A stretch of 28,244 nucleotides of DNA from a virus. Position 1 is the stretch's first letter, and each line of letters opens with the position of its first letter. The translations under genes and the position numbers were made by a program. This document shows, piece after piece, positions 305-27,000 of the stretch. The DNA lies in the IMG/VR virus record IMGVR_UViG_3300032265_002322, positions 1-28,244 of that record, one strand, 5' to 3'. The notes below the pieces were generated by a model. It saw only the letters and a list, made by a program, of their open reading frames with translations. It searched no databases and had not been told where the DNA came from.

Positions 305-1023
305 AAAAAACTTTCGAGCCCTTCCACATCCAAGTGGTGTTCAAAACCACATTTGGAACAAGTCATATCAATTTTCTTAGATAATTTAGGAATACTATTG
401 AAGAACTTTTCTAGTTTTTCAAATTGTTCTTGGTTCAATTGTTCAATAAACTCAATCAATTCCTCAACTGAAGATTCTTTCGCATAATGAAATTGCTCAC
501 CATCATAAACATATTCAATTGATTGAGCCAGCATATTAAAAGTAACTTCTGTAATGTCTTCCATTTCAATAGAGTCTTTAATTAACTTGAATGGTGGATA
601 TTTCATTTTAACGACAATTTTATCTGTCAGTTGAATTTCTGGATCCACATATTCTTCTTGTACAGGTTTGACCTCAGTCAAATCAATTTTGGCTTCCATA
701 ATGTTGCCACAGACTTTATCTTCAACTTCATTATTACAACGATATTTTGATTCAGATATTTCACCAACAGACTTTGCTCTCAGTTGTATAAAGTAATATT
801 CAATGTCTATAATTGGCAATTCATCAACATCAACATCTTTTGTGAGAGTGCATACATCTAATATTTCTCGCACATTATGTTGAATTGTTTTTGCATCAGA
901 TGACTCTAATGCCATCATCAAGGCTTTTTGTTCCTTGATTAGGTAAGGTCTAAACTTAATTGTTTTTTTAGAAAGCGGTAATTCCAATTCATATGTTGGC
1001 ACTTCAAGTTTTGGTAAAGCCAT
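298..1023 (-). CDS. 26: gp26-like baseplate hub / tail assembly protein (T4_baseplate family)
   Basis: A 241-residue protein resembling T4 gp26 (208 residues in T4), a factor needed for baseplate hub assembly in the cytoplasm. The N-terminal PTYELELPLSKKTIKFRPYLIKEQK stretch, shown here as PTYELELPLSKK then FRPYLIKEQK, is the typical family opening: a beta-hairpin followed by helices. Four cysteines, C96, C105, C222 and C225 (CSKCG), followed by two histidines at 229-230, look like a split zinc-binding site. The start is well supported: AAGGAG lies 6 nt upstream of the ATG on the minus strand. It is 9 bases downstream of the tube-fold gene in the same operon. The last codons hold a -1 slippery heptamer leading into a longer gp26 form. 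Family assignment is confident; the exact role of the two forms is inferred. Confidence 0.85.
   Translation of the reverse strand: MALPKLEVPTYELELPLSKKTIKFRPYLIKEQKALMMALESSDAKTIQHNVREILDVCTLTKDVDVDELPIIDIEYYFIQLRAKSVGEISESKYRCNNEVEDKVCGNIMEAKIDLTEVKPVQEEYVDPEIQLTDKIVVKMKYPPFKLIKDSIEMEDITEVTFNMLAQSIEYVYDGEQFHYAKESSVEELIEFIEQLNQEQFEKLEKFFNSIPKLSKKIDMTCSKCGFEHHLDVEGLESFFG
304..310 (-). promoter_or_regulatory. Putative -1 programmed ribosomal frameshift site T TTT TTC
   Basis: In the zero frame of gp26 the codons read AGT TTT TTC GGC TAA, so the heptamer T TTT TTC has the X XXY YYZ phase needed for tandem -1 slippage. The zero-frame stop lies one codon downstream (298-300). On the minus strand, GGAAGGG sits 8 nt upstream of the heptamer, in the place where an internal Shine-Dalgarno stimulates -1 shifting in E. 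coli dnaX. I could not make out a convincing downstream hairpin or pseudoknot by eye. Confidence 0.65.
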
Positions 1024-9036: not shown

Positions 9037-11112
9037 ATGGCAGGAGCTAACACAAATTTCAACATAACGGAACTAGACTTTAATAATATTAAAGATAGTT
9101 TTAAAAATTATCTCAAGAATAATGGCGTTCTTCAGGATTATAATTATGAGGGTTCTGCATTATCCACAATAATTGATTTGTTGGCATACAACACACAATA
9201 TAATGCATATTATCTGAATATGGTGGCCAATGAGATGTTTTTGGACACTGCATTACAAAGAAATTCAGTTGTTTCACAAGCCAAATTACTAAATTATGTA
9301 CCAAAATCTGCATTGGCACCATCGGCATCAATCAATTTGACAATATCAAATGTGAATGATACTTCATTGACATTACCAAAATATACATTGTTTTTATCTG
9401 AAGCGGTTGATGGGGTCAACTATAATTTTGTAAACACCGACTCACATACAGTTGCCGTTACAAATAATACCGCATTTTTTGAAAATGTAACACTCAAACA
9501 AGGTACAGGAACAACAATAACATATCAAGGTAGTAGTGTAGTAGGTTACAAATTTAAAATCCCAGATATCAATGTTGACACAACAACATTGTTGGTTTCG
9601 GTTCAAGAATCCGGTTCAAACAACTATACATCAACTTTCACAGAAGCTTCCAATTTTCTTACATTATTACCAAGTTCAGAAGTTTATTTCCTACAAGAAG
9701 GACTGAATGGTTACTATGAAATATATTTTGGTGACGGCATTTTAGGTAAAAGAATTTCTGAGAATAACATAATAAATGTATCTTATGTTTCAACTCAAGC
9801 TGGTTCATCAACTGGTGCAAATAACTTTATATTAATGCAATCTGTTGCTGGATATGCAAATTCAGCAATTTCACCGTTAACACCAGCTTCTCAAGGTTCT
9901 ACAAAAGAATCAATTAGTTCAATTCGTTTTCATGCACCTAAATCATATGCTTCACAAGGTCGTGCTGTAACTAAAGAAGATTACATTACGGCAATTCAAC
10001 AAAACAAATTAGGTTATTCATTCGATTCGGTTAGTGTTTGGGGTGGCCAAGAAAATGATCCACCAGTTTATGGGCAAGTATTCATTGCGATGAAACCAAC
10101 CGGTTCATACACAATAACAGAAAACCAAAAATTAAAATTAATAAAAGATGTATTAAAACCAATATCAATGTTGACAGTTGAACCGGTAATTATTGATCCT
10201 GATTATACTTACATACAAATTACTGCAAATGTATTGTATGATCCAAAAAGAACTACATCATCGGCCGATCAAATAAAAGCAGCAGTAAAATCGGCTATCA
10301 ATGCCTATGCAAAAACAACTCTAAACACATTTAATTCTACTTTTAGAGCTTCCGATTTTAATAATAGAATAGGTACTGTCGATTCTTCTATCATCACAAA
10401 TGAAATATCAATTCAATTACAGAAGAAATTTTATCCAAATCTATCAACGCCAACAACTTATAAATTATATTATGGTGCACCATTAAAACGTGGTTTGTTT
10501 TTGAGTGGTATAATAAGTTCACCTTCTGTTGTGTATAGAAATCCTTTGAATTTAGCACAAACAATTGATAGTTTATACATTGAAGAAGTTCCATCATCAA
10601 CAGGTGGTGTGGAATCTATTACAATAACAAATCCGGGGTTTAGTTACCAAGGCCAACCAACAGTAACCATATTGGGTGATGGAACTGGTGCAACAGCAGA
10701 AGCTGTTATGACAAATAATGGAACAATAAAACAAATCAATGTTATAACAAAAGGAACAGGATATACTTCAGCCATACTTAAAATTACACCTGCGGTAGAA
10801 GATACTACAGGTTCATCAGCTGCAGGTATAATTACACTTGAAGGTCGTTATGGTACACTAAGATTATATTACAATGATACATCAAATGTCAAAACCGTGT
10901 TCAAAGGTAATATTGGAACTGTGGATTACAATTTGGGTGTTGTGACATTAAATTCATTTTCACCATTGAATGTAAATAATGATTTGGGATTATTAACGGT
11001 GAATGTGAATCCAACAACCACTATATTATCTTCATCATATAATAGAATACTTACAGTGGATGAATTTGATCCACAATCAATTATTGTTAACGTAACGGCC
11101 AAAACAACATGA
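9037..11112 (+). CDS. 6: gp6 baseplate wedge subunit
   Basis: A 691-residue protein (T4 gp6: 660), the main wedge dimer that forms the continuous inner ring of the baseplate. The N-terminal part FNITELDFNNIKDSFKNYL and DYNYEGSALSTIIDLLAYNT, then FLDTALQRNSVVSQAKLLNY, is strongly diagnostic of gp6. The central FGDGILGKRI and RAVTKEDYITAIQQN match the gpJ-like wedge core found in contractile tails. Residues 522-588 contain a GGxGY-type module (ITNPGFSYQGQPTVTI ... VITKGTGYTS), not expected in T4 gp6. The C-terminus is beta-rich and ends FDPQSIIVNVTAK. Its stop overlaps the next start (ATGA), implying coupled translation with gp7. Confidence 0.93.
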   Translation: MAGANTNFNITELDFNNIKDSFKNYLKNNGVLQDYNYEGSALSTIIDLLAYNTQYNAYYLNMVANEMFLDTALQRNSVVSQAKLLNYVPKSALAPSASINLTISNVNDTSLTLPKYTLFLSEAVDGVNYNFVNTDSHTVAVTNNTAFFENVTLKQGTGTTITYQGSSVVGYKFKIPDINVDTTTLLVSVQESGSNNYTSTFTEASNFLTLLPSSEVYFLQEGLNGYYEIYFGDGILGKRISENNIINVSYVSTQAGSSTGANNFILMQSVAGYANSAISPLTPASQGSTKESISSIRFHAPKSYASQGRAVTKEDYITAIQQNKLGYSFDSVSVWGGQENDPPVYGQVFIAMKPTGSYTITENQKLKLIKDVLKPISMLTVEPVIIDPDYTYIQITANVLYDPKRTTSSADQIKAAVKSAINAYAKTTLNTFNSTFRASDFNNRIGTVDSSIITNEISIQLQKKFYPNLSTPTTYKLYYGAPLKRGLFLSGIISSPSVVYRNPLNLAQTIDSLYIEEVPSSTGGVESITITNPGFSYQGQPTVTILGDGTGATAEAVMTNNGTIKQINVITKGTGYTSAILKITPAVEDTTGSSAAGIITLEGRYGTLRLYYNDTSNVKTVFKGNIGTVDYNLGVVTLNSFSPLNVNNDLGLLTVNVNPTTTILSSSYNRILTVDEFDPQSIIVNVTAKTT

Positions 11113-14100
11113 TAGAAAATGGCCATAAAACCTCATTACAGGTACTTGACCAATTACCTGAACATGTCCGTGACAACGAAGATTATAACAATTTCAAAGT
11201 ATTTCTAAAGGCTTACTATGAATGGATGGAAACAACTGGTAAGGTAACTGACAGGTCTAAAAATTTACTATCTTATAAAGATATTGATAGAACAACTGAT
11301 GAATTTTTAGACTATTTTACTAATGATTTTTTACCTTATTTTCCAAAAGAATCATTAATAAGCCAACAAGAGGCAGTAAAAGTCGCAAGGCAATTATACC
11401 AAAGTAAAGGTACACCATCATCATACGAATTTCTTTTTCGTGTATTGTACAATACTGATGTTGAAATATTTAACACTAAAGATTCGGTATTCAAGGCATC
11501 TGGTGGTACATGGTATATTTCAAAAAGTTTAAAATTATTATCAGCCAATCCATATTTCTTGCAAACAAAGAACTATAGAATTTTTGGTGAAATTTCAAAA
11601 TCTATTGCAACAATTGAAGCTGCTGTATTGGTTGGAAGTAAAACAGAAATATTCATATCAAACATTGAAAGATTATTTAATTCTGGTGAAACTGTTAGAA
11701 TTGTAGATTCAAATAATCAAGATGTTTTATTTGGTGGTAATGTACTTCGTGCAAAAATTGTTGGTCAAATTAGCCAAATAAAAGTTAGTCCAACAAGTCG
11801 TGGTTTAACATATCAACCTGGTGATCCAGTTGTAGTTTATGGTGGATTAAACGCAAACGTTGCAAATCCAATTGGCGCAACAGCAATAATTGGTGAAATT
11901 ACAAAAGGTTCTATTCAACGTATCAATGTGTTGGATGGTGGTTATGGTTATTCTGCAAAACCAAATACAATTATTGTAATTGAAGATTCGGCCACAAGTG
12001 GTGCAAGGGCAAATGTTGCATCTGTATCACCATATCTACCTCCAACATTTAAAATAATTAATGGTGGTAGTGGTTATAAAATTAATGACTCAGTAATATA
12101 TGAAGATTCAACTTTTGCATATGTAACTGAGGTTGATGCCAATGGTACCATAAAAAATATTAAATATAGTGAATCAGTTAATGCACAAGCTATTGTTGGT
12201 ATAAGTGCATCAGTACGTTCTTCGAACTCACAAGCTACAGGTGCAATTGTACAAACTGCAACGGCACTAGGTAACGCAAGATCAAATGTAGCTTTTATAC
12301 CAATTGATGTTATTGGATTTAAAAAGAATATTAAATTAAGTAATACGAATTTCTATTTTGCTAATGCTGCAACATCCACTAAAGATACAACACTTGCAAA
12401 CGCATTTACTTTTGGTTCAATAACAACATATCCTATATCTTCTGTTTTTGTCGATAATGGTGGTGGCGGAATAACTAAAATTCCCGAAATAACTGCATTG
12501 TCTACATATGTGACAGAAGATTCTTTTGATGAATTTGCTGTTAGGTCTTCACTGAAATCACTTGGTATATTAGGACCAATTCAGATCAGTAATGGTGGCG
12601 CTGGTTATAGAGCGAATGATAGGATTATTTTTTCTGGTGGAAATGGTAATGGACCATATGCAAATGTAGTGAGTGTTGATGGAACTGGAGCTATTACATT
12701 AGTGGATTATTTTATTGATCCACAATATAGAAAGTATCCAAAATGGCCATTAGGTGGAATGGGATATAATAATGAATATTTACCTTCAGTGACTGTAACA
12801 TCTGCAAACACATTAGCATCTGGCGCATCTTTATTTGTTCCTGGTATTCTTGGAACAGGTGCAAAACTTTCTCCAATTGTAGATAGAGCAGGTTCAGTAA
12901 CAACAATTTCAATTGAAAATTATGGTGAAGATTATGAATTAAAACCTAATGTATCAATAAGAATACAAGATATTGTTGTATCTAATGTTGCGATTGAAAA
13001 CTTACCACAAAAAGATGATGTAATCTATCAAGGTCCAACAATCAAGCTTGCATCATATTCTGCAAAAGTCAACTCAATTTCATTGTTGGCTGCTGATGCA
13101 AACTCTCAACTATCACTATACAATTTGAGAGTTTACAATTACGATTCTCAACCAAATCCAAAACTACCTTTGGTGATTGATAGTAAAAAAATCATACTAC
13201 CAATGGCTAACTCGTTATTTCCACAATTTGTACAAACGTATGATTATTTTGATGCGGTTGGTAAACGAACGGTATACTCCAGAACTTATGATAAAACTGG
13301 TGTTATAACTTTTGGTGATGGATCCGCAAAAGCTAACGCAACATTTTTAAATGGCCTTGTGATTGGTGATGGAGAATATTTAACAACACAAGGACAACCA
13401 AGTTCTTACGATGTGTTGCAAAGTACCAAGTATAATAATTTCACATATCAAATTACACTTGAAAAAGAAATTGCAAAATATAGAGAAGTTTTGTTGAATC
13501 TATTGCACCCAACAGGTACAAATGTAATTGGTCGTTATGCATTAAAATCAAACAATAAAGTTTATCATCATGCACAACAAGGTTTATATAGTGGACAACC
13601 ATTAGCCTATTTCTTGGGTGAGTACATTTCTGATGTACTCAGTATCACCACAAGTTTTACCAACAAGAGTAACAATGTAATCAAATTCAATAATAAACTT
13701 GGTGCAAATTTGGAAACATTTATATTTCCAAATGCAAGTACAATTGCAATTAAAAATGACAATGGTGCCAACATCAAAGCTTTGGTTATTGGTGTTAATA
13801 ACACAGCAAATTCAATAACAATTGCAAGTAATGTTTGGTTGACATTTGGAAATGTGGCCGTTGTTACTGGTACCTCGGGCACCAACACACTAAATATTAC
13901 ATCATTGACTGGTCAATTTGATTATGAAAACAATGGTGTTTATAGTAACACAAGTTATCCATTAAAAGATATTGTTTACGCCGGCGATTCAATTCAAGTA
14001 AACACAAATGTATACACAGTTAAATCTGTGAACTACTTGCAAGATAAAATTGTTTTAACAACTAACTTATCTTCTAATGAAAACACTTTACTATCTGTTA

Positions 14101-14246
14101 AGAGAAACTTCATTGCAAATAGTACACTTTCATCAAATCAAATTAAGATATTTGGTCCTATTGGTATACAATATATACCAGAGATTACCACAGAAAATGG
14201 TATTACATTAACAACGGAAGACGATAGAACAATCCTATTGGGGTAA
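11109..14246 (+). CDS. 7: gp7-like baseplate wedge protein
   Basis: A 1045-residue protein, similar in length to T4 gp7 (1032), directly after gp6 as in T4. The first about 130 residues (LDQLPEHVRDNEDY, FKVFLKAYYEWMETTGK, TDEFLDYFTNDFLPYFPK, LYQSKGTPSSYEFLFRVLYN) are the standard N-terminus of marine T4-like gp7 proteins and should form the helical wedge core with gp6 and gp53. The middle is built from repeated beta modules with GGYGY (about 276), GGSGY (about 317) and GGAGY (about 495). KEIAKYREVLLNLLHPTGTN near residue 790 is another conserved stretch. The rest is Asn/Thr-rich beta sequence, perhaps outward-facing. ATG overlaps the gp6 stop. gp7 identity rests on position, length and N-terminus. 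Confidence 0.78.
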   Translation: MIENGHKTSLQVLDQLPEHVRDNEDYNNFKVFLKAYYEWMETTGKVTDRSKNLLSYKDIDRTTDEFLDYFTNDFLPYFPKESLISQQEAVKVARQLYQSKGTPSSYEFLFRVLYNTDVEIFNTKDSVFKASGGTWYISKSLKLLSANPYFLQTKNYRIFGEISKSIATIEAAVLVGSKTEIFISNIERLFNSGETVRIVDSNNQDVLFGGNVLRAKIVGQISQIKVSPTSRGLTYQPGDPVVVYGGLNANVANPIGATAIIGEITKGSIQRINVLDGGYGYSAKPNTIIVIEDSATSGARANVASVSPYLPPTFKIINGGSGYKINDSVIYEDSTFAYVTEVDANGTIKNIKYSESVNAQAIVGISASVRSSNSQATGAIVQTATALGNARSNVAFIPIDVIGFKKNIKLSNTNFYFANAATSTKDTTLANAFTFGSITTYPISSVFVDNGGGGITKIPEITALSTYVTEDSFDEFAVRSSLKSLGILGPIQISNGGAGYRANDRIIFSGGNGNGPYANVVSVDGTGAITLVDYFIDPQYRKYPKWPLGGMGYNNEYLPSVTVTSANTLASGASLFVPGILGTGAKLSPIVDRAGSVTTISIENYGEDYELKPNVSIRIQDIVVSNVAIENLPQKDDVIYQGPTIKLASYSAKVNSISLLAADANSQLSLYNLRVYNYDSQPNPKLPLVIDSKKIILPMANSLFPQFVQTYDYFDAVGKRTVYSRTYDKTGVITFGDGSAKANATFLNGLVIGDGEYLTTQGQPSSYDVLQSTKYNNFTYQITLEKEIAKYREVLLNLLHPTGTNVIGRYALKSNNKVYHHAQQGLYSGQPLAYFLGEYISDVLSITTSFTNKSNNVIKFNNKLGANLETFIFPNASTIAIKNDNGANIKALVIGVNNTANSITIASNVWLTFGNVAVVTGTSGTNTLNITSLTGQFDYENNGVYSNTSYPLKDIVYAGDSIQVNTNVYTVKSVNYLQDKIVLTTNLSSNENTLLSVKRNFIANSTLSSNQIKIFGPIGIQYIPEITTENGITLTTEDDRTILLG

Positions 14247-14249
14247 ACA

Positions 14250-16052
14250 ATGTCAACAGTAAAAATTTCGCAATTACCAAATCTAACACGTTTAGATAGT
14301 AACACATCCAATACAATTTTGGTTGGTATTGATAATTCAACTAGTGTTACTAGTAAATTCACAGCTAGAACATTGGCTGAAAGTTTGTATTCCAATACTG
14401 CATTGAATGTTGGTAACAACGCAATCATTCTTCCAAATGTTGTTGCACAATTTTCCGGAAATACGTCAAACTATTTGCAGGTGAATTTACAAAACAAAAC
14501 ACCTGATGGTTCAGGTGACTATATTATTACTGCTGACACAGGTACTGATGATAAGAATTATATTGATTTAGGTCTTGCTGGTTCTACAGATACCGATCCA
14601 TCTTATACTTCTATATTGCCATTAGATGGTTATCTGTATGTACAAGGTAACACCGCAACAGGCACTGGTGGTAACCTAATCATAGGCACAACAACCGCAG
14701 GTAGAACAGTTAATATTATTGCAGGTGGTCCAGGTTCAGACAAAGTTCAAGTAAAAATTTCAACAGATGGTGTGAATTTGATTGCAAAACCATTAAAGTT
14801 TGCTGACGGAACATCACAAAACACATCTGCAACCGCATCAGCCGCATCAGGTGAATTGTTTGCTAACGGTGCATTTGCAAGAGCCAACGGTGCATATGGC
14901 GTAGCAAATTCCGGTTCATCATTTGCTAATGGTGCTTTTACAACAGCCAATTCTGCGTCAACGATTGCAACTGCTGCATTTGGTCAAGCCAATTCTGGTG
15001 CATCTTTCGCTAACGGAGCTTTTGTAATTGCAAATTCAGCTGCAATATTTTCTAACGCAGCATTCGACCAAGCAAATTCCGGTTCATCATTTGCTAATGG
15101 TGCTTTTGTAATTGCAAATTCAGCCGCAATTTTTGCAAATGCTGCCTTCCTAAAAGCTAATTCAGCCGCAATTTTTGCAAATGCTGCGTTTACTACTGCA
15201 AATGTGGCACCATCGGCAGCATCCTTTGCTAACGGAGCATTCTTGGTTGCAAACTCAGCGGCCATATTTGCTAATGCCGCATTCCTGCAAGCCAACATAT
15301 CTGCTGCGGCTTTTGGTCAGGCAAACTCAGCAGCATCTTTTGCTAATGGTGCTTTTGGTCAAGCCAATTCTGGTGCATCTTTTGCTAATGGTGCTTTCTT
15401 AGTTGCAAATTCTGCAGCATTATTTTCTAATAACGCTCTTGTAATAGCCAATGCATCTTATAGTTCCCAAAACACTACAGCAGCATTTGCTAACGGAGCA
15501 TTTGATAGAGCCAACGGAGCATTCACATCCGCAAACTCTGGTTGGACCAGAGCAAATTCTGCATACAGTTTGGCGGGCATACAAGCAGGTCGTTTGGATG
15601 TTATTGAACCGATTGCACAAGCAGCCTTCAGTAATGCAGCCAGTGCTTTACAAAACACATCAACAATTGTAGTTGATACCAATTTAACAGTACCTGGTAC
15701 ATTAACTGTATCTGGTGCATTGTATGCAGCCAATACAATTAGAATTTCAAATATATTTCCAGGATCTCAAACAGCAATTACACTTTCTTTCCAAAATTCT
15801 GGTTTAATAAAAGCAAACATTGCAGCAGATTTGGTCATTACGCCTGTATCTTTTGTTCCAGGAAAATTTGTTGATATGTTTATAATAAACACTACAGGAC
15901 AAGGAAAAACAATTACACATGGATGTGCTGCAATCAATTCAACAATAGGTGCAACAACTTTTTCTTTGGCGGCCACAAAAACAGCATATTTAAGATATAC
16001 ATCTTTTTACAACGATCTGGCAAATACATGTGTTGCAATAACATATCAGTAA
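14250..16052 (+). CDS. Fibre-like structural protein with AF--AN heptad repeats
   Basis: A 600-residue protein between gp7 and gp8, a slot with no counterpart in T4. The N-terminus (MSTVKISQLPNL, VGIDNSTSVTSKFTA) is typical of phage fibre attachment parts. Residues 70-195 are beta-rich with Gly/Thr. Residues 203-444 are a 7-residue repeat of the form A-F-x-x-A-N-x, mostly arranged as 14-residue pairs such as SFANGAFVIANSAA. The phase suggests a trimeric coiled coil with Asn in the core. Residues 470-600 form a compact beta domain (NLTVPGTLTVSGALYAANT, VDMFIINTTGQGKTITHG) likely to register the trimer or bind a ligand. A short fibre, fibritin or gp10-gp12 analogue is possible. The receptor-binding role is inferred. 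Confidence 0.75.
   Translation: MSTVKISQLPNLTRLDSNTSNTILVGIDNSTSVTSKFTARTLAESLYSNTALNVGNNAIILPNVVAQFSGNTSNYLQVNLQNKTPDGSGDYIITADTGTDDKNYIDLGLAGSTDTDPSYTSILPLDGYLYVQGNTATGTGGNLIIGTTTAGRTVNIIAGGPGSDKVQVKISTDGVNLIAKPLKFADGTSQNTSATASAASGELFANGAFARANGAYGVANSGSSFANGAFTTANSASTIATAAFGQANSGASFANGAFVIANSAAIFSNAAFDQANSGSSFANGAFVIANSAAIFANAAFLKANSAAIFANAAFTTANVAPSAASFANGAFLVANSAAIFANAAFLQANISAAAFGQANSAASFANGAFGQANSGASFANGAFLVANSAALFSNNALVIANASYSSQNTTAAFANGAFDRANGAFTSANSGWTRANSAYSLAGIQAGRLDVIEPIAQAAFSNAASALQNTSTIVVDTNLTVPGTLTVSGALYAANTIRISNIFPGSQTAITLSFQNSGLIKANIAADLVITPVSFVPGKFVDMFIINTTGQGKTITHGCAAINSTIGATTFSLAATKTAYLRYTSFYNDLANTCVAITYQ
14857..15581 (+). repeat. 42-bp based tandem repeat coding AF--AN heptad pairs
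   Basis: Degenerate tandem units of 42 bases (14 codons) encode [SG]-x-[AS]-F-[AS]-N-[GA]-A-F-x-x-A-N. About ten full units are visible, with insertions (VAP near 15205, ASYSSQNTT near 15455) and shorter 7-codon units at the end. Several DNA stretches are nearly identical, such as TTTGCTAATGGTGCTTTT, so exchange between units is likely. The units alternate between an ASFANGAF type and an AIFANAAF type. Confidence 0.8.
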
Positions 16053-16058
16053 TAAATA
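16051..16058 (+). promoter_or_regulatory. Late-type promoter motif AATAAATA before gp8
   Basis: AATAAATA overlaps the stop codon of the fibre gene and ends 7 bases before the gp8 ATG at 16066. It fits NATAAATA. T4-like spacing would place the transcript start at about 16064, giving a nearly leaderless gp8 message. At least one other copy of this octamer occurs within gp8 coding sequence (near 17238), so chance occurrence is possible. Confidence 0.4.
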
Positions 16059-16065
16059 AAACACT

Positions 16066-17433
16066 ATGGCAAATAAAAATATTCTCACAAACGGTTCAAA
16101 AGTTTCTCAGATAGAACTGATGTACTATGCACCGGTGGCTGTGGTGCCACCAAATCTGACTGAACCAATCAATGTGTTCTATTGTTTTCTGGCAAAACCA
16201 ACACCTTGGGATAATGAAGTGAATCCACCTGTTCCTACAACCGACTTGAAATCACTCAAGCAGGTGTACAGGAATATGTTTATTGTAAAGAAAATAAAAA
16301 CAAACGATATATCACCAGTCATACAGCGTGTAGATTGGACCTCTGGAGTAATGTATAATTATTTTCAAGATGATGGTGATATGTTTGCAAAAGATCAAAA
16401 TGGTTATATAACTTACATGTTTTATGTAAAAAACAAATACGACCAGGTTTTTAAGTGTTTGTGGAATAATAATGACCAGCCGTCAACTGTAGAACCATAC
16501 TTTGAACCAGGCACTTACACTGCAAACAAAATGTTCCAAAGTTCAGATGGTTATAAATGGAAGTTTATGTACACCATCGACACAGGTCTAAAACTCAAGT
16601 TCATGGACAAAGAATGGATGCCAGTAGCAGTTGGTACAAACACACCAAACCCATTAATTACATCGGCCGGTGTAGGTAGTTTAGATGTTATCAATGTAAA
16701 TGATGGTGGTTCAGGATACGATCCTGGTAACTCCGTGGTGCAAGTTATTATAACTGGTGACGGAACAGGTGCTACAGCAACTGCAAATGTACAGTCTGGT
16801 GTAATACGAGATATTATTGTTACTAATCCAGGTAGCAATTATAGCTATGCAAATGCTTTTATTAAATCTGGTTTTGGCAATAATGCTGTACTAACACTTT
16901 CAACTTCACCTGTTGGTGGCCACGGTTTTGATCCAATTTCAGAATTGGGATGTAACCATGTGATGATGACTTGTGAGTTTGAAGGTGATGAAGGTGGTTT
17001 ATTGCCAACAGATATTGATTTTCACCAGTTGGGTATAATAATTAATCCAACAACCAAACAATATAATCCAATATATGCAAATGGTGTCGCATATAGTACA
17101 ACTACAGATATCGTTGTTGCACCAGGTTCAGATACTGGTTTTCAAATGGATGAAATTGTTTATCAAGGTACGGCAGACAATCCAACATTTACTGCCACGG
17201 TTTTATATTTTAATTTTGCTACCAATTTATTAAAGCTAATAAATACAAAAGGTGTTCCAGTAACTAATAGTCCTATTTTTGGTCAATCAACTGCATCAAC
17301 AAGAACTGTATTATCTTACAGTCTTCCAAATTTTGCAATTTACTCAGGTTATTTGGCATACATTGAAAATAGAACTGGTGTTCAAAGAAGCGGTGACGGA
17401 ATAGAACAACTCAAATTTGTATTAGGTTTCTAA
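16066..17433 (+). CDS. 8: gp8 baseplate wedge subunit with an inserted beta module
   Basis: A 455-residue protein (T4 gp8: 334). The N-terminal two fifths has the gp8 layout: VFYCFLAKPTPWDNEVNPP, LKQVYRNMFIVKKIK, ISPVIQRVDWTSGVMYNYF, and DGYKWKFMYTID (T4: DGYVWEYLFEI). The C-terminus, GYLAYIENRTGVQRSGDGI followed by EQLKFVLGF, corresponds to T4 GEMIYMENRPP...EEINILF. Between them, residues 206-280 form a GGSGY module (NDGGSGYDPGN ... VTNPGSNYSYANAFI) absent from T4 gp8 and explaining much of the extra length. gp8 dimers clamp the wedge to gp7 and gp10. It starts 13 bases after the fibre gene, behind a late-type motif, and is followed by the DUF4815-type gene after 9 bases. Family assignment is confident. 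Confidence 0.9.
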   Translation: MANKNILTNGSKVSQIELMYYAPVAVVPPNLTEPINVFYCFLAKPTPWDNEVNPPVPTTDLKSLKQVYRNMFIVKKIKTNDISPVIQRVDWTSGVMYNYFQDDGDMFAKDQNGYITYMFYVKNKYDQVFKCLWNNNDQPSTVEPYFEPGTYTANKMFQSSDGYKWKFMYTIDTGLKLKFMDKEWMPVAVGTNTPNPLITSAGVGSLDVINVNDGGSGYDPGNSVVQVIITGDGTGATATANVQSGVIRDIIVTNPGSNYSYANAFIKSGFGNNAVLTLSTSPVGGHGFDPISELGCNHVMMTCEFEGDEGGLLPTDIDFHQLGIIINPTTKQYNPIYANGVAYSTTTDIVVAPGSDTGFQMDEIVYQGTADNPTFTATVLYFNFATNLLKLINTKGVPVTNSPIFGQSTASTRTVLSYSLPNFAIYSGYLAYIENRTGVQRSGDGIEQLKFVLGF

Positions 17434-17442
17434 GGGAAAAAA

Positions 17443-20400
17443 ATGGCTCTAAATTTTAACGTTGATCCTTACTATGATGATTTCGATGATGCGAAAAACT
17501 TTCATCGAATTTTATTCAAACCAGGTAAGGCTGTACAAGCCAGAGAATTAACACAAGCACAAACAATTCTACAGGATCAGATTACTAAGTTTGCCAATAA
17601 TATATTCAAAGAAAATTCTCCTGTAACTGGCGGTCAACTTACAACAAATTTTAATTGTTTCTATATCAAATTACAAAGCACATATAATGGTGCAACAATT
17701 GATGTTACCGATTTTAATGGTTTATTGTTAACTAATTCAATAGGAACAATTAGAGCAAAAGTTATTGCTGTTGCACAAGCAACGGGCACATCAGGACAAG
17801 GTGATCCACCAACATTAATTGTTGTTTATAAATCAGGTACACATTTTACTGATAATGATATCATATATGATGTAAATTCAACTAAAGCTTGTCAAGCAAT
17901 TACAAACAATTCAACAGGTCAATCTTCTGTTGTTTCTATTGCAAAAGGTGTGTTCTATGTTCTTGGTAACTTTGTACAAATTGAACCAATAACAATCATA
18001 TTAAGTAAATATGATAGTACACCATCTAGAAGGGTTGGTCTTGAAATTACTGAAACAATTTATGATTATGCAAATGATGCATCGTTGTTGGATCCTGCGG
18101 TTGGTGCATCAAACTACCAGGCACCAGGTGCAGACAGATATGTTATTAGTCTTGAACTAACATCAAAACCATTGTATTTTGGTGATGACCAATTTTTTAT
18201 TGAATTACTTCGTATTGAAGATGGTAACGTTTTCAAAATGATTGATGGTTCAGTTTATGCAACAATTGATGACTATTTTGCAAAGCGTGACTATGAAACA
18301 AATGGTGATTATATTGTAAACGATTTCACTGTCACACCAAAAGTTGATCCGGATGATGAGGACAAGTATATAATGGGTGTTGGTAAAGGCCTTGCATATG
18401 TACATGGTTACCGTGTGGAAAATCCGTCACCAATCAATATATCTTCCAATCGTGCAAGAACAATAGATTCAAAAATAAATGACACAACAATTATAAACTA
18501 TGGTAGTTATTTTATTGTATCAAATGTACATGGTGCAAATTCAAAAACATTTGATGTAACTACAGCAAATACAATAGACTTACATTGTGTTTCACCAAAT
18601 AATGTATACACAGCCAATGCAACAACATATAATTCTACTTTGGTGGCCAGAGGTTACATTCGTGGTTTAGATTATCAAAGCGCACCATCAGCCAATGCAA
18701 ACACACATATCTTTAAGGCAATGGTATATGATTTGCAAAATCAAGCTTTGACAGGCACAGTTGTTTCAGCAACTTCGACAACCATAGTTTTACCTGCAAC
18801 AAACGGACTAACATCCTCAATTGATGGTGCTTATGCTAATGTTGATATTTCCATCACCGCAGGAACAGATGCAGGTGAAACAAGAACAATTACATCATAT
18901 GTTGGTTCTACCAGAACTGCAACTGTAAATAAGGCTTGGAGTGTTACACCAGATAACACCTCAACTTTTGTGATGAATTTTGATACAACTGATACAGAGT
19001 CTATGTTGCAAATTAATACTAGCAACTACACCATATACGGTAAAGCAAAAATAGATGACACAGGAAAAGAAACTGGATTATCTTCTGGTGATGCAATTTT
19101 TGTAAATCCAAATAAACCAGAATTAATATATCCAATAGGTTTACGTTATGTTTCTGGTATTTCTCGAGCATATTACACATCTTTCATTGAAGTTAGAGGT
19201 GTTACTTTTAGTGTTTCTGGTAGTACATTATCTGGAGTAGTGGATCTTTCAAGTTATAATAATAAAATTGCACACATAGGCACAGCAGGCCAAAATTTAA
19301 CTTCAGATTTGATTCTAGAAAATTTCACAATTATTGTGACAAATGCTCAATCAAATTCAAAATTTGCAGCTGGTGATATTGTTAACTGGACCGTATCTCC
19401 TAGAACAATTGGAATAAATAACAATTTATCTGTTGCAACATTACAAACAACAACTTCAGATTTAACTGCATTTACGGCAACAATTTTACTTAAAGTTGAT
19501 GTGCCAGTTGCAACTGATTCTGGTGCAATTTTAAAAATTAAAAATTTAGTTACCGCCAATGCAAATACAGTTGTCACTAGTGGAACACAAGTTAACACCT
19601 ACACATATGTTGATGATGGTGTAATTTCTAGTGGTCAAGTTTACATACAGGCCGCAGGAGTTGCGGCACCTGGAACAAAACAATCATTGTATCTATCTGA
19701 TGTGAAAAGAATTATAAAAATTATTGATACAAAAGCTTCAGGTACAGTACCATTAACATCAATGTATACCAATTCGACATATGATGTTACAAATAATTAT
19801 GTGTTCGATAATGGACAAAGAGATGGTTATTATGGCCATGCATCAATTACATTAAAACCAGGTGCACCTAAGCCATTAGGTAATTTGCTTGTATATCTTG
19901 ATTACTACAAACATTCCGGTGGTGATGGATACTTTAGTCAAACATCTTATATTTCTTCAAATTTACCAGAACAATACAGGGAAATTGGAGACTACACAAG
20001 TAAAAATGGAACAACATATTCATTGAGAGATTGTTTAGATTTCAGACCATCAAGACAAAATGCTCAATCAGATTTTGTTTTCCGCTATTCTAATCCATCG
20101 GATACAATAAGATTTGGAATTTTATTGCCTGTAGATTCAACAAACTTTATTTGTGATTATCAATATTATCTTGGCCGTAAAGATAAATTGGTTCTAACAA
20201 AAGATAGAAGTCTACAAATAGTTGAAGGATCACCTTCAATCAATCCAATTTTACCTAATGAACCAGATTCTTCATTAACAATAGCCAACATTACACATAA
20301 TCCATATACTGGTTATGTAACAACTGAAGCTCCTATTGGCAAACTACCAGATTTGTCTATTGACAAAGTGCAACACCGCCGTTACACAATGGCTGATATT

Positions 20401-23400
20401 GCGGGACTTGACACAAGAATTAACCGTGTTGAATATTACACATCATTAAATTCACTTGAACAAAATGCAAATTCGTTGCAAATTTCAGATGCATATGGTT
20501 TGAATAGATTTAAAAATGGTATTATGGTGGATGATTTTTCTGGTTTTTCCGCTTCAGATTCAGGTATCACAGACTATAATGCAAACATCAATAGAAGAAC
20601 AAGACAGTTGACGGCTGGACAAAATGTTAATAATTTTCCATTGAAAAATTTAGCAATGGTGTATAACATGAATTCACCAACAACATCATCAATTTCTGGA
20701 TTGAATTACAGTGTTAGTAGAGAAGGTTCAGTAAATTATTTTACATTACCATATACTACAACCAATCTTGTTGCACAAAAATTAGCAAGTAGAACAACGA
20801 ATGTAAACCCATTCAATACTCCTTTTGCAAAAGGTAGTTTGTCATTAACACCAAATATGGACAATTGGGTTGACACAACATATTCACCATCATTATTAGT
20901 TGTTGATCCTAGTTTACAAGTATTCCAAAGAGGTGATGTGACAAATACATTGTCTTTTGGTGATTGGCAAACAGTTCCTGGTACATCAATAACAAGTCTA
21001 CAATCACAAAAATCTAGTCCATGGGCCACAGTGTCTAATACCACTGGTTGGACAGGTGGTTCAACTGGATTGCAACAAACAACAATACAAAATTCCACAC
21101 TTTCTTCAACTTATATCACAAAGTTTAAAGAACAACAGAATAATTTACTTGGACCATACAATAAAATAGATAACACCTATGCACTGAATGATGGTTATAT
21201 AAATGATATCAGCATTCTTCCATGGATTAAACCGCAACAAATAGTAATCAAAGCTTCTAATCTATTGATTAAAACTAAATTGTATGCGTTCTTTGACAAT
21301 GTAAGTGTTGATGCTTATGTTCGCAGATTGAATACGATTGAAATTGCATCCGTGACTGGCACATTTAAAGCTGGTGATATTATTGGTTATTATTCATCTG
21401 GCACATTTACACCTACAGGTAAAATTGAAGGTGTATACAATTACACCGATACAACCAAGATTCGTTTGTATGTTTCAAATGACTTTAAGACAACCACATA
21501 CAATAATGGTTTAGCCTTACAAAACGGATTCTTTAATGCATCAGGTGTTTATCAATCATCTACAGCTTCAGGTAGTGTTGTTGCAACACAATTTAGTAAC
21601 TCAAGTGAACACTATAGTGGTACGTTGAAAGATTCAGCATCACTTACATCAGTACAATTATCACCATTAGCATCAAGTACAACAAATTTCTATAATGGTT
21701 TAACACTTTACATAACTTCTGGTGCAAATCCTGGCCAATCAGCAGTTATTACTGCATACAATGGAACAACAAAAGTAGCAACACTTGCAACACCAATTGC
21801 AGTAGCTTCAGTTGTTGGATTACCAGACAGAGAAACATATTCTATTGGTTCAAGCACAGGTTCAATTGAAACTAATGAACGTGGTGATTTCTTTGGTGTG
21901 TTTACAATACCAGCAAACACCTTCCATACTGGCCAAAAAGTATTCCGTTTGGACAACCGTATCAATAACAATACTGCTACGGTATCCACATATGCTGAAG
22001 GCACCTTTTATGCCGAAGGCCTACAAATCAATAAACAAAACATTGATTTTGGTGCATCTCCAGCTGGCGCAAAAGATGTTTTCAAACAAACATTGTATAA
22101 AGATTCTTCTTATACAACAAATACGTCCGAAGTGCAAACAAGAAGAATTGTTACAGATTTGCAACCACCTCCGCCACCTTTCGCTGATCCAGTATGTCAA
22201 ACTTTTCAAATTGATCCAACAAACTTTCCAAATGGTGCTTTTTTATCGTCAATTAAAGTGTTCTTTGCATCAAAACCAACATCAACAAATGATGGATCAC
22301 CAATAACACTCTCTATTGTTGGTACATTAAATGGTTATCCAAACGGAACAACATTAGATCATTCAATAGTTATTTTAGATCCAACTCAAGTTAAAGTTTC
22401 TTCAACACCACAATACTTGGATTCAACTACTTACACTGAATTCAAATTTACTGCGCCAGTTTATATTCAAACCGGTGTATTATATGCATTTATGTTGAAA
22501 TCAAATTCAAATGAATATACCATGTGGACCGCTTCTAATAATGAAGAAGCTTTACCCTCAACAGTAAAAAATCTATCAACTGATCCATATCCAAGTTCTA
22601 TTACAAAAATATCATCTGCATATTATGTTGGTGGTTTATTCATTTCTCAAAATTCACAAACATGGGAAGCAGATCAAAACCAAAGTTTGATGTTTACTGT
22701 TGACCGTTGTGTATTCAACACATCAGTTACACCATCAGTTAGAATGGTTATACCTAAAAAATTACCACAAAGAACTTTGGTTGATTCTGAAATTGATTTC
22801 TACAAAAATGCAAACACAATGACAGATTTGATTTCAACAACATCAAATTCAAACATATTAGTGGATGCATTTAATATATCAACAACAGATTTCGTACCAT
22901 CATCAACATCAATTAATTACACATATGATGCAACGTTACAAGGCGAAACTTCTGCTGGCCAGGTTGCAATAAATCCAGGTAAATATGGTACAACAATGTA
23001 CGAACACATTTATTTGGATGATAATCAAGGTGAAAGATTATTAATTGCAAACTCTGAAACATCTTTTTCCTTGTATGGACAATTATCTTCATTAGACAAT
23101 GCTGTTTCTCCAGTTATTTCTGATGCTGGAACAACTGTATTTACAGTTCAATATAATATCAACAATTGTGAATTGTCAAATAGTTTAATATCTATTGTTT
23201 CACAAGGTAGTAGTTACGATTCAAGTAACACAACAGTTACCATTTCTGCACCAACAGGATTGAATGGTACACAAGCATATGCATCACCAGTAATTACAAG
23301 TGGCAAAATTACCTCAATCTATCTAACAACACCGGGTTCAGGATACATAGAAACACCAACAGTTTCAGTTGTTGTTGGTAGTGGTTCTGCTTCTGGTGCA

Positions 23401-23871
23401 TCTGCAACAATAACAGGTGAGACTTCTAAGAATGGTGGTCCTGCTGCAACCAGATATATAACCAAAAAGGTTGTATTGGATGCAGGATTTGACTCTGGTG
23501 ATTTGAATGTGTATTTGTCTGCTTATCGTCCAATTGGAACAGATATACAAGTATACTACAAAATTTTGAATAGAAATGATACACAAGCTTTTGCTGATGG
23601 TTCTTGGAAATTGATGACTAAAACAAAAAATTGTGGTACACTATATTCCAATTTTAGAGGCGATTTACACGAATATACTTTTGCACCCGGCATATTTGGT
23701 ATGGAACAAGGTTATGTTTCTTATGTTTCCACGAATGGCCAAACATACAATTTATTTAATCAATTTGCAATCAAAATTGTGTTGGTGACTAAAGATAAAA
23801 CAATCGTTCCATACTTAACGGATATGAGATGTATTGCATTACCTTCAAACTTTAACAGTCCAATTCCATAA
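17443..23871 (+). CDS. Giant DUF4815-type virion structural protein
   Basis: A 2142-residue protein. The N-terminus (NVDPYYDDFDDAKNFHRILF, then KPGKAVQARELTQAQTILQDQ, FKENSPVTGG) is the hallmark of the DUF4815 family, large baseplate-peripheral proteins of marine T4-like phages. The first about 930 residues, up to SLRDCLDFRPSR, follow that family. Two similar beta inserts occur at 437-512 (SATSTTIVLPATNG ... GETRTITSYVGSTRTATV) and 1392-1468 (GANPGQSAVITAYNG). A third module with GSSYDSSN and GSGYIETP lies at 1917-1993. The region 1640-1760 (CQTFQIDPTNFPNGAFLSSI, SVTPSVRMVIPKKLP) looks like a carbohydrate-binding-like beta domain. AAGGGA 7 bases before the ATG is a good ribosome site. It may take the place of T4 gp9-gp10-gp11 in joining wedges to fibres; that role is inferred. 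Confidence 0.85.
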   Translation: MALNFNVDPYYDDFDDAKNFHRILFKPGKAVQARELTQAQTILQDQITKFANNIFKENSPVTGGQLTTNFNCFYIKLQSTYNGATIDVTDFNGLLLTNSIGTIRAKVIAVAQATGTSGQGDPPTLIVVYKSGTHFTDNDIIYDVNSTKACQAITNNSTGQSSVVSIAKGVFYVLGNFVQIEPITIILSKYDSTPSRRVGLEITETIYDYANDASLLDPAVGASNYQAPGADRYVISLELTSKPLYFGDDQFFIELLRIEDGNVFKMIDGSVYATIDDYFAKRDYETNGDYIVNDFTVTPKVDPDDEDKYIMGVGKGLAYVHGYRVENPSPINISSNRARTIDSKINDTTIINYGSYFIVSNVHGANSKTFDVTTANTIDLHCVSPNNVYTANATTYNSTLVARGYIRGLDYQSAPSANANTHIFKAMVYDLQNQALTGTVVSATSTTIVLPATNGLTSSIDGAYANVDISITAGTDAGETRTITSYVGSTRTATVNKAWSVTPDNTSTFVMNFDTTDTESMLQINTSNYTIYGKAKIDDTGKETGLSSGDAIFVNPNKPELIYPIGLRYVSGISRAYYTSFIEVRGVTFSVSGSTLSGVVDLSSYNNKIAHIGTAGQNLTSDLILENFTIIVTNAQSNSKFAAGDIVNWTVSPRTIGINNNLSVATLQTTTSDLTAFTATILLKVDVPVATDSGAILKIKNLVTANANTVVTSGTQVNTYTYVDDGVISSGQVYIQAAGVAAPGTKQSLYLSDVKRIIKIIDTKASGTVPLTSMYTNSTYDVTNNYVFDNGQRDGYYGHASITLKPGAPKPLGNLLVYLDYYKHSGGDGYFSQTSYISSNLPEQYREIGDYTSKNGTTYSLRDCLDFRPSRQNAQSDFVFRYSNPSDTIRFGILLPVDSTNFICDYQYYLGRKDKLVLTKDRSLQIVEGSPSINPILPNEPDSSLTIANITHNPYTGYVTTEAPIGKLPDLSIDKVQHRRYTMADIAGLDTRINRVEYYTSLNSLEQNANSLQISDAYGLNRFKNGIMVDDFSGFSASDSGITDYNANINRRTRQLTAGQNVNNFPLKNLAMVYNMNSPTTSSISGLNYSVSREGSVNYFTLPYTTTNLVAQKLASRTTNVNPFNTPFAKGSLSLTPNMDNWVDTTYSPSLLVVDPSLQVFQRGDVTNTLSFGDWQTVPGTSITSLQSQKSSPWATVSNTTGWTGGSTGLQQTTIQNSTLSSTYITKFKEQQNNLLGPYNKIDNTYALNDGYINDISILPWIKPQQIVIKASNLLIKTKLYAFFDNVSVDAYVRRLNTIEIASVTGTFKAGDIIGYYSSGTFTPTGKIEGVYNYTDTTKIRLYVSNDFKTTTYNNGLALQNGFFNASGVYQSSTASGSVVATQFSNSSEHYSGTLKDSASLTSVQLSPLASSTTNFYNGLTLYITSGANPGQSAVITAYNGTTKVATLATPIAVASVVGLPDRETYSIGSSTGSIETNERGDFFGVFTIPANTFHTGQKVFRLDNRINNNTATVSTYAEGTFYAEGLQINKQNIDFGASPAGAKDVFKQTLYKDSSYTTNTSEVQTRRIVTDLQPPPPPFADPVCQTFQIDPTNFPNGAFLSSIKVFFASKPTSTNDGSPITLSIVGTLNGYPNGTTLDHSIVILDPTQVKVSSTPQYLDSTTYTEFKFTAPVYIQTGVLYAFMLKSNSNEYTMWTASNNEEALPSTVKNLSTDPYPSSITKISSAYYVGGLFISQNSQTWEADQNQSLMFTVDRCVFNTSVTPSVRMVIPKKLPQRTLVDSEIDFYKNANTMTDLISTTSNSNILVDAFNISTTDFVPSSTSINYTYDATLQGETSAGQVAINPGKYGTTMYEHIYLDDNQGERLLIANSETSFSLYGQLSSLDNAVSPVISDAGTTVFTVQYNINNCELSNSLISIVSQGSSYDSSNTTVTISAPTGLNGTQAYASPVITSGKITSIYLTTPGSGYIETPTVSVVVGSGSASGASATITGETSKNGGPAATRYITKKVVLDAGFDSGDLNVYLSAYRPIGTDIQVYYKILNRNDTQAFADGSWKLMTKTKNCGTLYSNFRGDLHEYTFAPGIFGMEQGYVSYVSTNGQTYNLFNQFAIKIVLVTKDKTIVPYLTDMRCIALPSNFNSPIP

Positions 23872-24096: not shown

Positions 24097-27000
24097 ATGG
24101 CTAATACAGTATCCTCATTAAGTTATGCCAATACATTTGGTGATTGGATGGTTTCGACCAACAATCTAGTTATCGAAAACAACATTCTTGCCAAAGATAA
24201 TTATGTCAAAGATTCTGGAACATTATATCTTTCCGAAAGTTCACAAACTGCTTTACAATCAAACGGTAATGTTATCGTTTCAAAAGTTTTTTCAGTAACA
24301 GGTATTGGTTCATCTGCAACTATTCAAAACAATTTAAATGTTCAAGGTCAAGGTTACTTTTCAAATGGAAATTTGAGTCTTGCAACAACAGGAACTGCAA
24401 ACGTTGGTAATGTATTGAATGTTTTAGGATCAGGTAACGCATTAATAGTTTCAAATAATGCTATAATTGGTGGTAATGTTGCAATATCATATGCAACCAT
24501 CACAAGAACATTACAGGCAAACAATACTGTAAACACATCTTACGCTTCAGTATATAATACCATATTTGCAAATAAATTACAAGCAAACAATAGTACATTA
24601 ACAGATGTTTCAGTTGCAAATAGTTCCAGTTATACAAATTATTTACAAGCAAATACAAATATATTAACCGGATCATTACAGGCTAATGACTTTGTTAATA
24701 CTAGAACTATGTCTGTCACTGGTGTTACATACACTAATGTGTTACAGGCTAATACTTCATCAAACACATCAAATGCAAGTATTGTTTGGACTTTATATGC
24801 AAATAATGTGCAAGCTAATGCTACAGTTAATACAACAACTGCTTCAATTACTGGCACAACATTTACCAATAATTTACAGGCCAATACACAGGCCAATACG
24901 CAAACACTTTCTGTGACTCAAACTGGATTTGTTAATTTATTACAAGCCAATTCACTAGTCAACACCAGAACCATGTCTGTTACTGGTACAACTTATACTG
25001 ATGTTCTACAAGCTAATAGTGCAGCCAATACTACAACAATGTCAGTTACTGGAACTACATTCACTGATGTGATGCAGGCAAATTCAGCAGCCAATACTAG
25101 AACCATGTCTGTTACTGGCGTAACTTATACTGATGTTCTACAAGCCAATTCAGCAGCCAATACTAGAACAATGTCTGTTACTGGTACAACATATACTGAT
25201 GTTCTACAAGCCAATTCGGCAGCCAATACTAGAACCATGTCTGTTACTGGAACCACAAGAACTGATGTGTTACAAGCTAATAGCGCAGCCAATACTAGAA
25301 CCATGTCTGTTACTGGAACCACACTCACTGATGTTCTACAAGCTAATTCTGCGGCTAACACCAGAACCATGTCAGTTACTGGTGTAACATATACTGATGT
25401 TCTACAAGCCAATTCGGCAGCCAATACTAGAACAATGTCTGTTACTGGAACCACACTCACCGATTTGTTAGTAGCAAATACTAGAATTAATACAGTAAAT
25501 GTTTGGGCAACAAATACAGTAACAGCAAATACAATAAGAGCAAATAATGATGTTTATACACCAAACATAGCAGTTACAAAATTGTTAGATGCAAGCTTAG
25601 CTGAAGTTTATGCTAAGAGTTTGCAAGTTACAAATGATTTTGGTATTGGTGGCAATTTTGTTATCAATGGTAAAACAGTATACAATGTAAACGAATTTAC
25701 ATTAAGCCAAAACGCAAAAAATCAAACATCATATTTCAGAGTTTATAGAACGATTGATGGAACATCCAATACTGCTACGGCCAATGCAACAATTCGTTGG
25801 AATGAAGCAGGAAACTATTTTGACATTAATGATGTAAATAGTTTTGAAGCGGCTTCATACTACAGAATTATTACCGAACAACAACTTAGCGATTCAACAA
25901 CATCAATAAGTTCAATAACTGCCGCATCATCCAAAGCCGCAAACACATTAAATACCGCATTACAAACTGCAAATACTTTCTTAAAAGCAAGAATAGATTC
26001 AGCAGACTCTTTTGCCAATGGTTCATTTGTAAGAGCCAATTCTGGTTATGCCGCAGCAAACTCAGGAGCTTCATTTGCAAACGGTGCATTTGATCGTGCA
26101 AATGCTTCATATGCTGCAGCAAACAATGTTGGACCACAAATTGAACCAGCACATGCAAAAGCTAATGCGGCTTTTGCAAAAGCTAATGCTGCAACATCTG
26201 AGATTAAGGGAACAACAGGTTCAATATCACCAATTGATGCATCATTGACATTTACATCAAATAATGGTGTACAAATTTATGCAACTACTGCAAACACCTT
26301 AGCAATCAGCACATCACAAGATTTGCGGACTACCGCAAGTCCGTTATTTACCGGATTAACAGTAACAGGAACTCCTCTGTCAACATCATCTGGTGGTACT
26401 GGTTCAACATCAGCTTCATCAGCATTCAACACATTGGTTGCTGCTGCTACAGGTACAGCAAGTGGAACTTCAGGTTATGTACTTGCAACTGGTGGTTCAG
26501 GTAACTTTTATTGGACTGCTGCTGGTGCAGGCGGTGCAGGCACTCAACCTGGTACCAGAATTACATCCAATAGATTGTCTTATACTGGTGATGGTACAAC
26601 AACAATATATACAACACCAACATTCAGTCAGGCCAACCAAGTTAGAGTGTATATTAACGGTGTTCGTCAATTAGAATCTGAGTATAGTTTAAATTCTGGC
26701 ACATCTAGAGTAACAATGACTGTTGCACCAGTTGTTAATGATAAAATATTGGTCGAAGTAGATGGTTATGCAGTATATGAATATTTTGCAAACAATATTA
26801 CATATGGACCAGCAACAGGTGCTCTTTCAACAGGATCAATTCAACTTGCAATTGACACATTAGAATCTGGTAAAATGCCTAAATCTGGTGGCACATTTAC
26901 TGGTACAGTGGTTGGTCTAACACCTGCCACCGCATCTAATGATACTACAATTCCAACTACTGCTTTCGTTAAAAATGCATTGAATGTTGGCACAGGAACA

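Follow-up and report, generated by a model that had tools for sequence, protein, structure and literature searches.

The virus record IMGVR_UViG_3300032265_002322 (IMG/VR) raises the question of whether successive structural proteins of one phage carry the same small beta module, and what such a module would be for. The window, which is the whole stretch of 28,244 nucleotides that was analysed and also the complete record, is part of a T4-like myovirus. The proteins in question are gp6, a gp7-like protein, gp8 and a 2142-residue protein of the DUF4815/'VrlC' type. An original prediction, made from the nucleotide letters and their translations, had described a glycine- and tyrosine-rich pattern in these four proteins and proposed that it moves between genes of the same baseplate. 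Our analysis makes it likely that the module is a single beta-barrel domain, about 65-90 residues long, that folds by itself and is promiscuous. It would have been inserted many times in loops of unrelated virion proteins and would form an exposed accessory surface. The carriers of this domain would be gp5, gp6, gp7, gp8, gp14, sheath, tail tube, cement and tailspike proteins, and bacterial surface proteins.

A module common to four structural proteins

A hidden Markov model (HMM) profile was built without any sequence of the window or of T4. Its seed was the sheath copy of a Stenotrophomonas phage, and it was trained on other phages. This window-free profile recovered the module in all four proteins (Table 1). 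When each carrier protein was shuffled locally 100 times, no domain scored above 8.5 bits. The existence of a common module was thus confirmed, and the positions given for it in the original prediction matched ours within a few residues. In the gp7-like protein, the three copies listed there were found, and a fourth, copy d, had been missed. Copies b, c and d were partial and scored below the other copies. The module was located at different points of the unrelated gp6, gp7-like, gp8 and 2142-residue proteins, as had been claimed.

The module of about 65 residues consisted of two half-repeats, each with a G-x-G-Y motif followed by a P-x-V-x-I strand, flanking G-D-G-T-G-A. When 17 copies were aligned, four glycines were invariant and both motif tyrosines were nearly invariant. 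Where the window copies could be aligned, most protein identities lay at about 30-45%, and plain BLAST between the window proteins linked the four carriers weakly at the module sites (E 0.001-0.25). The 17 aligned copies had no matching model in Pfam or NCBIfam.

We considered whether the copies were convergent glycine-rich beta repeats, alike in composition only. The module has a low-complexity character, and tblastn under its default filter gave no match with either the gp8 module or the profile consensus. However, local shuffles that kept the composition reached at most 8.5 bits against 17-59 bits for the copies, and the reversed controls were empty or not significant; with an earlier profile, the best domain in 612 reversed open reading frames (ORFs) had an E of 0.27. 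Motif order and spacing were common to the copies, and two structural models matched the same PDB domain. Neither the profile comparison nor the structural one failed when applied to an independent set. The empty tblastn result was most likely caused by the low-complexity filter, because HMMs found many copies. Convergence was therefore very improbable, and the copies were treated as homologous.

Table 1. Positions of the module copies in the window and their HMM matches to the window-free profile
Feature	Position	Strand	Carrier residues	Carrier ORF	Profile match
gp6 module	10603..10791	+	523-585 (C-terminal part)	9037-11112	525-579, 58.7 bits
gp7-like copy a	11763..11978	+	219-290	11109-14246	229-285, 17-20 bits
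gp7-like partial copy b	12045..12164	+	313-352		313-352, 19.7 bits
gp7-like partial copy c	12573..12704	+	489-532		491-532, 17.4 bits
gp7-like partial copy d	12843..12959	+	579-617		579-610, 19.4 bits
gp8 module	16675..16878	+	204-271	16066-17433	209-260, 43.7 bits
2142-residue protein module	23188..23418	+	1916-1992	17443-23871	1916-1972, 36.5 bits; second half-copy 1956-1992, 16.8 bits

The gene order of the window was gp25, gp6, gp7-like protein, a 600-residue fibre-like protein, gp8 and the 2142-residue protein, which closely resembled that of Pelagibacter phage HTVC008M. gp6 belonged to PHROG 219 and gp8 to PHROG 438. Two fibre-like proteins (14250-16052 and 24097-28242) both contained runs of short 'ANGAF/ANSAA' repeats. 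The second, of 1382 residues and open at the window end, had many near-identical 'TTYTDVLQANSAANTRTMSVTG' units.

Relatives with solved structures

T4 gp6 and gp8 gave 6.4 bits (E 0.027) and 0.2 bits with the window-free profile. The original prediction was right that these T4 versions lack the module, but it had overlooked a relative in the T4 sheath, as gp18 scored 23.6 bits. When 12 loci of named phages were searched, residues 102-156 of gp18 were the only T4 match. A further profile, A6, which combined 36 copies from phages and bacteria and excluded T4, was searched against 177,635 PDB sequences. The only proteins under E 0.01 were the tailspike Dpo31 (residues 448-505, E 4.4e-6) and T4 gp18 (E 3.2e-4 to 6.2e-3), and the matches in full-length gp18 began at residue 102. 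The hhalign comparison of A6 with gp18 domain I gave 83%. Domain I also scored with a T4-free profile in Straboviridae sheaths of other genera, in some of them weakly.

The fold matched as well. The AlphaFold2 (AF2) model of the gp6 module, made with 57 sequences, was all-beta and confident, with a predicted local distance difference test (pLDDT) value of 88.5. Its best match among solved structures was T4 gp18 99-186 (3foa; VIA Z 6.1 over 73 residues). Klebsiella phage sheaths followed with Z 5.0, and the next unrelated fold had Z 3.1. Foldseek placed T4 gp18 at ranks 1 and 2. In a separate model of whole gp8, residues 207-280 matched gp18 99-186 with Z 6.0 and 24% identity, so that the two models gave VIA Z 6.0-6.1 over 71-73 residues; the core of this model matched T4 gp8 with Z 15. 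In the same model, residues 347-421 (window 17104-17328) matched T4 gp7 768-845 (Z 8.3) and also resembled EF-Tu-type barrels (Z 5-6). Because of the match to T4 gp7, a second beta domain may be common to gp7 and gp8.

Domain I of T4 gp18 (PF22639; 3foa, 3fo8) resembles the module as a beta-barrel insertion with a G-x-x-Y signature loop, and it was found by T4-free profiles. It differs in having a helix-containing stretch instead of the second half-repeat, and T4 carries its copy in the sheath instead of in wedge proteins. PMC3004832 describes domain I as a protruding insertion at residues 98-188 without inter-subunit contact, to which both the baseplate and the long tail fibres in their retracted state bind; the substitutions G106S, S175F and A178V inhibit fibre retraction. 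The residue numbers of that paper agree with the sequence only when an offset of +1 is applied, and G106 then coincides with the first of the invariant glycines in the module motif.

Several observations weakened the link to gp18. The first, smaller alignment gave only 63% in hhalign, the Foldseek E for gp18 was 1.4, and a Z of about 6 is lower than the safe-match level of the tool. Apart from its good stretches, the whole-gp8 model was poor, with a mean pLDDT of 61 overall. The Pfam model of domain I (PF22639 Gp18_dom_I) matched T4 gp18 and Aeromonas phage 25 gp18, and it gave no match at E up to 1 in the gp6, gp7-like, gp8 and 2142-residue proteins and matched 0 of the 17 aligned copies. Domain I exceeds the length of the module by about 25 residues, with the helix-containing stretch in the place of the second half-repeat (structural description in PMC3004832), and G106S could act through unfolding of domain I. 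Since PF22639 missed the window copies, domain I appears to be a distant relative of the module rather than part of one Pfam family with it.

The second solved relative was D3* of Dpo31 (28lx, 28mg, 8ck1), which shares with the module a sequence match and the form of a protruding inserted domain. The sections of PMC13317679 on D3* place it at residues 434-536, protruding from its carrier. It differs in that it is part of a podovirus tailspike beta-helix and is Ig-like (immunoglobulin-like) in the authors' description. Dpo31 was absent from the structural matches listed for the gp6 model, which decides nothing. Ig-type Pfam families gave no match at E up to 1 in the four window proteins or the 17 copies. 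Phage Ig-like domains (Big_1/Big_2 types, in tail tubes and sheath additions) are likewise described as promiscuous, protruding and optional in the relevant parts of PMC8718954 and PMC9230969. The module differs from them in sequence and in its two half-repeats. It is inserted within the chain, whereas the Ig-like domains of lambda gpV and T5 pb6 are C-terminal.

Inheritance and spread among carriers

The window's own lineage was compared gene by gene. The gp6 copy was present in 126 of 126 gp6 ORFs from viral contigs, which were chosen as close relatives with duplicates kept, and in 0 of 7 gp6 ORFs of named phages. This looks like acquisition of the copy at the base of the clade or close to it, or else like losses elsewhere. 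The gp8 module is old, because 9 of the 10 gp8 ORFs of named non-T4 phages passed the threshold and the tenth, from Melnitz1, had a diverged remnant. Among ORFs of the 2142-residue type that had both flanks, 43 of 54 contained the module, and of the other 11, two (L078 and L093) had a degenerate but recognisable copy and a third (L067) was interrupted by Hint domains. No copy over the threshold was found in gp8 of Melnitz1 or in the 'big' proteins of Melnitz1 and HTVC008M. In L126 and L148, the match was lengthened by a neighbouring ORF and not by an intron. In L067:9823-17016 (IMGVR_UViG_3300032223_002055), the homologue of the 2142-residue protein ended in tandem Hint/intein-like domains (Hom_end_hint, PT-HINT, Hint), and the protein continued in the next ORF, which contained the module.

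In a tree of 93 copies (68 columns, with deep forks unresolved), the gp6, gp8, gp7 copy a and 2142-residue protein copies of the window's clade clustered by gene, copy a with its counterpart in 10 relatives. The exception was one phiN3 gp8 copy, which stood beside the gp6 group. The conservation percentile of the module relative to its carrier was 0.60 in gp6, 0.54 in gp8, 0.65 in gp7 and 0.31 in the 2142-residue protein. DNA comparison of the seven window copies, proposed in the original prediction as a way to detect recent transfer, found no convincing similarity between them. This result and the grouping by gene ruled out recent transfer within the window. Together with the gp6 copy in 126 of 126 ORFs, they spoke against a module that currently moves between the genes of this baseplate. 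As the copies grouped by gene, they are inherited vertically in the window's lineage and not shuffled, and each is a settled part of its carrier.

The search of other T4-like phages found the module in gp5, gp14 and sheath proteins. In the 12 loci of named phages, no phage was without a carrier. These carriers were gp7, gp8, gp14 (six copies in S-CAM9) and gp5 (S-SSM7), and proteins of the 2142-residue type in S-CAM9 and OLIVR6. In the sheaths of BUCT608 and Xanthomonas phage X1 the module occupied residues 240-307. This site, seen in sheath loci L007 and L009, differs from 98-188 in T4 gp18, which gives two sites for one family. When viral models were searched by structure, further carriers emerged, namely baseplate wedge, beta-helix, endosialidase and P22-gp10-like proteins. 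In parts of PMC10966104, an insertion domain of the A-1(L) wedge protein gp31 is reported to hold the long tail fibre. As a copy of the module this domain was unsupported: a profile search of bases 1-45000 of KU234533 gave, as the best of 114 ORFs, a small minus-strand ORF with E 0.049.

Bacterial genome contigs were scanned with a DNA pattern, which favours consensus-like copies. At least 118 stretches were found, of which 80 were kept as loci, and an HMM showed that 77 of these 80 encoded the module; the reversed control was empty. The carriers by Pfam were lambda-like tail tube (PF16460), cement proteins (PF23982/PF22758), DUF3383, DUF2589, gp8 and SusD, and a sheath with PF04984 at 31.3 bits (cut-off 31.4). 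Lipoprotein-like bacterial proteins had up to 18 module hits. Acidobacteria and Bacteroidetes proteins at L255, L179 and L205 had 18, 14 and 12 hits, apparently in tandem. Because bacterial and prophage carriers exist, the module is not a speciality of T4-like baseplates.

Gain and loss were observed in prophage tail tubes. The query was the tail-tube protein of a Pseudomonas guariconensis record (L194), which had a homologue in 30 of 199 Pseudomonas genomes. The module was present in 11 and absent from 19, always at one site, where query residues 126 and 205 adjoin (HMM and alignment). On a tree made without the module columns, and with the SusD row L298 left out, the trait changed 5 times (bootstrap 4-6), and at least 2 changes were forced by well supported branches. 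Optional, exchangeable insertion, as with phage Ig-like domains, was thus seen in the tail tubes and in the gp6 clade gain. The module was also inside SusD/RagB outer-membrane proteins of Bacteroidetes at L219 and L248. The gain or loss seen in tail tubes was also found in one listed relative of a SusD carrier, G296, where the match ran to residue 440 and resumed at 530 with 30 bases between; this comparison was taken from a listing across 195 genomes.

The tail tubes bear on the possibility that the module merely stabilises large wedge and tail proteins, as a structural brace or spacer with no specific partner. Its many carriers without a common ligand, its tandem arrays and a conservation that mostly concerns fold residues (glycine, tyrosine and alanine) would agree with a brace. 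However, the nearest pair of tail tubes with and without the module, at the same site, had 87% identity over 169 core columns. The module is thus not needed for the fold of its carrier, and we regard a mere brace as clearly unlikely.

Proposed role and meaning

We consider the module an accessory domain outside its carrier, because both solved relatives protrude, tail tubes vary in its presence and it is conserved like its carrier. The protrusion of the two relatives suggests that it is probably exposed on the baseplate of this phage too, in line with the surface position originally proposed. The barrel would hang outside the carrier core and leave assembly undisturbed. It could then offer a docking surface, weak but repeated, to fibres or adjacent virion proteins. 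The model for this is T4 gp18 domain I, which serves the baseplate and, after retraction, the long tail fibres. By this analogy, we tentatively propose that the module may act as such a docking surface.

Alternatively, the module could be a decoration that binds carbohydrates weakly and so helps the virion to skim along its host, with the T4 sheath as one use of several. Such skimming has been proposed for phage Ig-like domains. The carriers include a depolymerase tailspike, endosialidase, beta-helix and SusD nutrient-binding proteins, and multi-copy lipoprotein-like proteins of bacteria. In addition, where PMC13317679 discusses D3*, the authors report a distant DALI similarity to sugar-binding Ig-like domains (Z 2.8-2.9), which favours glycan contact and counts against docking. 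However, the fold likeness of the gp6 model to sugar-binding modules was weak (Z 2-3). The rate of change of the module in gp6, gp8 and gp7 did not exceed that of its carrier, whereas diversification is frequent in host-contact surfaces, and the account of T4 domain I in PMC3004832 describes a protein-docking role. A glycan-binding decoration thus seems somewhat unlikely. Docking is more likely than a glycan binder, and a mere brace comes after both.

A broader reading is that one ancient family forms a general 'socket' outside tailed-phage particles, of which the T4 gp18 retraction site would be the sole genetic instance, and that bacterial cell-surface proteins draw on the same domain pool. 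At every site of insertion, in sheath, baseplate wedge, neck, tube or cement, the socket would let fibres or adjacent parts dock. We hold this reading as doubtful.

Promiscuous accessory domains on virion proteins are already known, from Ig-like domains (PMC9230969, PMC8718954) and from domain mosaicism (PMC10684548), as far as the portions of these papers considered here go. The latter resembles the present case in that a fragment is common to otherwise unrelated proteins. It differs in naming receptor-binding proteins, endolysins, neck passage structures and polymerases, and 'tail sheath' was absent from the text available to us. In the open-licence literature, we found no paper that brings T4 gp18 domain I and Dpo31 D3* together in one family with the wedge, neck, tube and cement inserts.

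The finding marks a domain without a Pfam or NCBIfam model, which filtered tblastn can miss. It unites what had seemed oddities: T4 domain I, D3*, the extra parts of cyanophage gp7, gp8 and gp14, the prophage tubes and sheaths, and the SusD inserts. Two solved structures would then serve to interpret the whole family, and its role would be testable in T4.

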